DNA of 64,000 nucleotides, from contig NC_052476.1 in NCBI RefSeq assembly GCF_009730915.1, forward strand, positions 620,001-684,000, in the 5' to 3' direction. The first letter of the stretch is position 1, and every line of letters starts with the position of its first letter. This stretch comes from Dioscorea cayenensis subsp. rotundata. Lineage: Eukaryota; Streptophyta; Magnoliopsida; Dioscoreales; Dioscoreaceae. Below are positions 45,710 through 50,720 of the stretch, piece after piece. A program made the translations under genes and the position numbers. The notes under the pieces are model-generated. The model ran no database searches. It saw nothing but the letters and a program-made list of their open reading frames with translations, and was not told the DNA's origin.

Positions 45710-50720
<5,011 letters not shown>

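Follow-up and report, generated by a model that had tools for sequence, protein, structure and literature searches.

Can a coding exon of only four nucleotides be a genuine part of a plant gene, and if so, does its inclusion serve to regulate that gene? This question is raised by a RECQL3/RECQ3-type RecQ helicase gene of yam, which lies on the minus strand of the 64-kb window (64,000 nucleotides), i.e. the whole stretch of DNA that was analysed. The initial annotation of this DNA had proposed that the sequence GATG is a constitutive exon required for helicase motif V and that it might act as an on/off splice switch. Our analysis indicates that GATG is almost certainly a constitutive 4-nt coding microexon of the plant RECQ3 (RECQL3) helicase gene, identical in kind to the published microexon Cluster 5, and that it would complete a Gly codon and supply the Met of motif V.

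Gene model and family assignment

The exon ends of the gene model (Table 1) were placed by eye on the genomic sequence, with the Arabidopsis protein rather than a transcript as guide. All 18 introns of the resulting model are of the GT-AG type, and the frame is open over 730 codons. The 730-residue protein scores 460.5 bits against the family profile TIGR00614 (recQ_fam; cut-off 219.8), and with 433.4 bits it stays below the cut-off of 640.2 of the narrower bacterial equivalog TIGR01389. It contains DEAD, Helicase_C and RecQ_Zn_bind domains, and the presence of these domains together with a motif V of the form [AS]FGMG[IV][DN] characterizes it as a RecQ helicase. When the 4-nt exon is left out, the DEAD domain is kept, Helicase_C drops to 31.3 bits (65.9 in the full model) and RecQ_Zn_bind disappears. 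The nearest solved structures identified by phmmer in the PDB are helicase Q5 chains, and their motif V reads SFGMGVD at the aligned position in 5/5 alignments shown. Helicase Q5 is presumably the human RECQ5 protein.

The step from RecQ family member to orthologue of plant RECQ3/RECQL3 is based on the initial annotation and on two matching microexons. A soybean relative of At4g35740, the gene named AtRECQL3 in Arabidopsis, encodes 745 amino acids, which is close to the length found here; the matched passages of that study say nothing of a microexon (PMC10565003). Among viral contigs, 38 stretches matched the pattern for plant-like RECQ3 DNA, of which none was confirmed.

Table 1. Features of the window, with positions counted from its first nucleotide
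Feature	Position	Strand	Basis
RECQL3/RECQ3-type RecQ helicase gene, coding span, 19 coding exons, 730 aa	45710-50720	-	model by eye, TIGR00614, Pfam domains, helicase Q5 relatives
8-nt microexon CATTGATG, coding exon 3, phase 1	50250-50257	-	sequence, gene model, unique among enumerated paths, Cluster 18 in size, phase and gene
Coding exon 10, 97 nt, end ...ATIAF + GG; 3' edge GCTTTTGG/gtatca	48399-48495	-	gene model
Intron 10, 291 nt, GT-AG, 5' splice site TGG/GTATCA	48108-48398	-	gene model, site scores
4-nt microexon GATG, coding exon 11, phase 2	48104-48107	-	sequence, gene model, unique among enumerated paths, agrees with Cluster 5 (Yu et al. 2022)
Intron 11, 113 nt, GT-AG, 5' splice site ATG/GTATGA	47991-48103	-	gene model, site scores
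Coding exon 12, 150 nt; 5' edge tttcag/GGCATAGAT	47841-47990	-	gene model
Exo70 exocyst subunit	12951-14795	-	Pfam
PPR protein	16504-17661	+	Pfam
GOST seven-transmembrane protein	19834-20979	+	Pfam
DUF1677 protein	56253-56696	-	Pfam

A four-nucleotide exon completes motif V

On the minus strand, GATG is found at 48107-48104 between ttacag on its 5' side and gtatga on its 3' side, as had been read before, in the context ...ctgctgttgttacag/GATG/gtatgacaac... (slashes mark the exon borders), and it is the single GATG on the minus strand of the gap between exons 10 and 12. This gap had been given as 407 bp; it measures 408 nt between the end of exon 10 at 48399 and the start of exon 12 at 47990 and consists of intron 10 (291 nt), the exon (4 nt) and intron 11 (113 nt). 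The flanking exons were said to join into a stop, and they do: the direct junction reads GCT TTT GGG GCA TAG, i.e. ...AFGA followed by a TAG stop at codon 319, and skipping of GATG would accordingly truncate the helicase at once, again as anticipated. With the four bases in place, GCT TTT GG and GGC ATA GAT become GCT TTT GGG ATG GGC ATA GAT. Two codon bases precede the exon, which completes Gly317 and encodes Met318, and the frame then reads through AFGMGID and remains open to 730 residues.

The expectation that RecQ proteins carry AFGMGID at this position agrees with the aligned homologues. Among the best 80 of at least 594 confirmed prokaryotic RecQ loci, a set of bacterial and archaeal sequences that informs on the motif only and whose uniformity is biased upward toward similar loci, A, F, G, M, G and I occur in 80/80; the next residue is D in 59 loci and N in the other 21. 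Helicase Q5 has the related SFGMGVD. The Met of motif V appears to be a conserved residue that the 4-nt exon supplies, and it may be essential, as the initial annotation proposed.

Four bases between splice dinucleotides can arise by chance, and the alternative that the real transcript is spliced through a different junction or cassette, or that the gene is a non-functional copy, has to be weighed against the microexon. An AG-NNNN-GT pattern occurs twice in the gap and on average 0.70 times per dinucleotide shuffle of the gap, i.e. it is common by chance. If the outer splice sites are left unchanged, an open frame results from 13 different cassettes, of which GATG is one. Among the other 12 is a decoy of equal size in intron 10 (AG/TACT/GT, 48320-48317, minus strand), which would give GTGID. 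Since AG-NNNN-GT is common and other cassettes including TACT also remain open, the case for GATG rests on the Met that it encodes and not on its splice dinucleotides. Dinucleotide shuffling of the 408-nt gap recreated the more specific sequence AGGATGGT in 73 of 20,000 trials (0.37%); the share was 0.29% when about 50 nt of intron was demanded on both sides.

We enumerated the splice paths across the gap by what they encode, requiring introns of at least 50 nt and admitting sites that lie no deeper than 60 nt inside exon 10 or exon 12. Direct joins could use GT or GC donors with AG acceptors, and paths through a cassette were limited to GT donors and to one cassette, at most 200 nt long. Open frames were obtained from 23 direct and 352 one-cassette paths, and GMGID resulted from exactly one of them, the path through the 4-nt exon. 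Direct joins yielded GMGID in 0 of the 23 open cases, irrespective of GT or GC donors, and other direct junctions or single cassettes were rejected as the true link between exons 10 and 12, because among the enumerated paths none restores this sequence. The intact structure of the gene, with its 18 GT-AG introns and 730 open codons, and the occurrence of an exon of equal size and phase in RECQ3 of other plants (PMC8831610, as far as the cluster entries of that survey go) likewise speak against a chance match or a decayed copy, which we regard as extremely unlikely. Gene model, path enumeration and RecQ alignments agree with the original proposal of a 4-nt coding exon that would provide the motif V Met of a plant RECQL3-type helicase.

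A second microexon of eight nucleotides

The RECQ3-type gene contains a further microexon that is absent from the initial annotation. It has the sequence CATTGATG (50257-50250, minus strand), is preceded by gaccag and followed by gtaagc, and completes SPLIALMENQV, a region that we take to be motif Ia. When direct joins and single cassettes were enumerated here, the pattern SPLI[AS]LMx[DN]QV was produced by 0/18 open direct paths and by 1/203 open one-cassette paths, the latter being the 8-nt exon. The A, L and M to which this exon contributes are well represented in the best 80 of at least 594 prokaryotic loci: 74 have the A and the remaining 6 an S, and L and M are present in all 80. Skipping of the 8-nt exon leads to a stop at codon 112. 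Joint skipping of both microexons, which together have 12 nt, was considered as a rescue of the frame and rejected, because the stop at codon 112 comes before.

For genome annotation, the locus is a clean case in which 4 or 8 missing bases cut the model of a 730-residue helicase at codon 319 or 112, respectively. A larger importance would arise only if inclusion of these exons turned out to be regulated.

Relation to known microexons and age of the exon

Comparable ultra-short exons are available from the plant gene APC11 and from MPC1, the latter of a host that is presumably not a plant. The APC11 exon of Arabidopsis resembles the exon described here as a constitutive ultra-short coding exon of a plant gene, but it belongs to another gene, has 1 nt instead of 4 and was demonstrated experimentally in the study that describes it (PMC4674806, cited for this exon). 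The 4-bp microexon of MPC1 shares the size of 4 nt, which is not a multiple of 3, and its constitutive inclusion, although the gene is unrelated (PMC9929638, cited for this microexon). To place a 4-nt exon close to the smallest size that can be spliced is loose wording, as a constitutive exon of a single nucleotide is reported for APC11 (PMC4674806).

The 4-nt exon and its 8-nt companion are already known, as both correspond to plant microexons published in 2022 (Yu et al., Nat Commun 13:820, PMC8831610). In the cluster entries of this survey, Cluster 5 has size 4 and phase 2 and is assigned to RECQ3 (AT4G35740.1), and Cluster 18 has size 8 and phase 1 and is assigned to the same gene. The yam gene matches Cluster 5 in gene type, size and phase, and it likewise has the 8-nt, phase 1 companion of Cluster 18; one phase convention fits both microexons to both entries. 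For Cluster 5, no difference was noticed in a comparison by size, phase and gene rather than base by base. The same 45 clusters are catalogued in MEPDB (PMC12409088).

The published tally also bears on the question, raised by the initial annotation, of whether the microexon is ancestral. According to the portion of the survey that deals with cluster distribution, only Clusters 4, 12, 39 and 43 are specific to flowering plants, 35 of the 45 clusters are common to moss, five are shared with Selaginella and lack a moss counterpart, and only Cluster 10 is common to Chlorella (PMC8831610). Because these groups sum to 45, Cluster 5 predates the flowering plants by elimination, and the answer given by this tally is yes.

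Among the matches listed in a literature search on microexons and RECQ3/RecQl3, which is incomplete for subscription journals, none dealt with a regulated inclusion of the 4-nt exon. The term RecQ is absent from the main text of a paper on rice micro-exon genes (PMC6600660), RECQ3 is mentioned once in the searchable text of PMC8044525, and in the matched passages of two papers that combine microexon with RecQ helicase, the former word denotes only a program option.

Order of intron removal and the question of regulation

How could four bases be recognized by the splicing machinery? The microexon survey offers a possible answer in its section on Arabidopsis, where 50 of the 69 microexons with constitutive splicing had at least one detained flanking intron, which lay upstream more often than downstream (PMC8831610). 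Removal of the downstream intron alone, and never of the upstream intron alone, was seen for 16/69 microexons and the reverse for 4/69, and among the remaining 49, reads of downstream removal predominated for 32 (PMC8831610, same section).

The 5' splice sites of the yam gene show a similar asymmetry when ranked by a leave-one-out matrix, although these ranks derive from the 18 introns of this one gene and are indicative only. The 5' site of intron 10 is the lowest of the 18 (-2.13) and that of intron 11 ranks 5th; the 5' sites of the two introns that flank the 8-nt exon are 1st (intron 3, downstream) and 14th (intron 2, upstream). When matches to AGGTAAGT are simply counted, intron 10 reaches 4/8 and is not the worst, as intron 1 has 3 and intron 12 also has 4, and the 3' sites are without such contrast (intron 10 9th and intron 11 12th of 18). 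Taken together with the downstream-first tendency in the published Arabidopsis data (PMC8831610, as above), the 5' site scores suggest that downstream-first removal suits introns 10 and 11. Intron 11, with the better 5' site, would mostly be removed first, so that GATG becomes fused to exon 12, and intron 10 would then be spliced to an exon of ordinary size. With two introns removed in succession, the four bases would need no definition as a separate exon.

Each of six tested splicing failures, i.e. skipping of either microexon or retention of intron 2, 3, 10 or 11, introduces a premature stop that lies more than 55 nt ahead of 7 to 16 exon junctions. A premature stop with junctions at this distance is the usual trigger of nonsense-mediated decay, and mis-spliced RECQ3 transcripts may thus be destroyed by this pathway.

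The same property could in principle be exploited, such that regulated skipping of the 4-nt (or 8-nt) exon silences RECQ3 in certain tissues or under certain conditions via premature stops and decay. Stops at codon 319 and 112, with 7 and 14 junctions more than 55 nt downstream, respectively, would suit such a mechanism, as would the lowest-ranking 5' site of intron 10 and, from the relevant passages of the survey, the tendency of the intron upstream of plant microexons to nuclear detention and the occurrence of some alternative splicing of coding microexons (PMC8831610). Against this stands that most plant coding microexons have a PSI above 0.5 in the same passages, which leave minor forms as either functional or noise (PMC8831610), and that the main text of the paper on GRP20, a micro-exon retention factor, contains neither RecQ nor helicase (PMC10808074). 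We consider regulated skipping very improbable, and the on/off switch suggested initially is unsupported, as coding microexons are usually included in the cited part of the survey (PMC8831610).

A related idea is that the two frame-breaking microexons, at SPLIALMENQV and at motif V, form paired splicing checkpoints that set the amount of RECQ3. If this very unlikely reading were true, slow or stressed microexon splicing would lead to a premature stop and to nuclear retention or destruction of the transcript, and the level of a DNA-repair helicase would follow how well the splicing machinery is working. The best explanation of GATG nonetheless remains a constitutive coding microexon, and all of the evidence can be explained without a regulatory role. 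Its constitutive inclusion is likely, with the reservation that the strict form is not assured given the alternative splicing of coding microexons.

Other features of the window

Apart from the helicase gene, four further genes were named by Pfam among the 10 open reading frames scanned (Table 1). Pieces of an LTR retrotransposon are distributed over several open frames at 5591-8735 (minus strand), with RNase H and integrase in one frame and an aspartyl protease in another, and their domains point to a Ty3-type element. Less than 1 kb from these pieces, a tandem array at 4277-4859 comprises 9.4 copies of a 62-bp unit with 90% matches.
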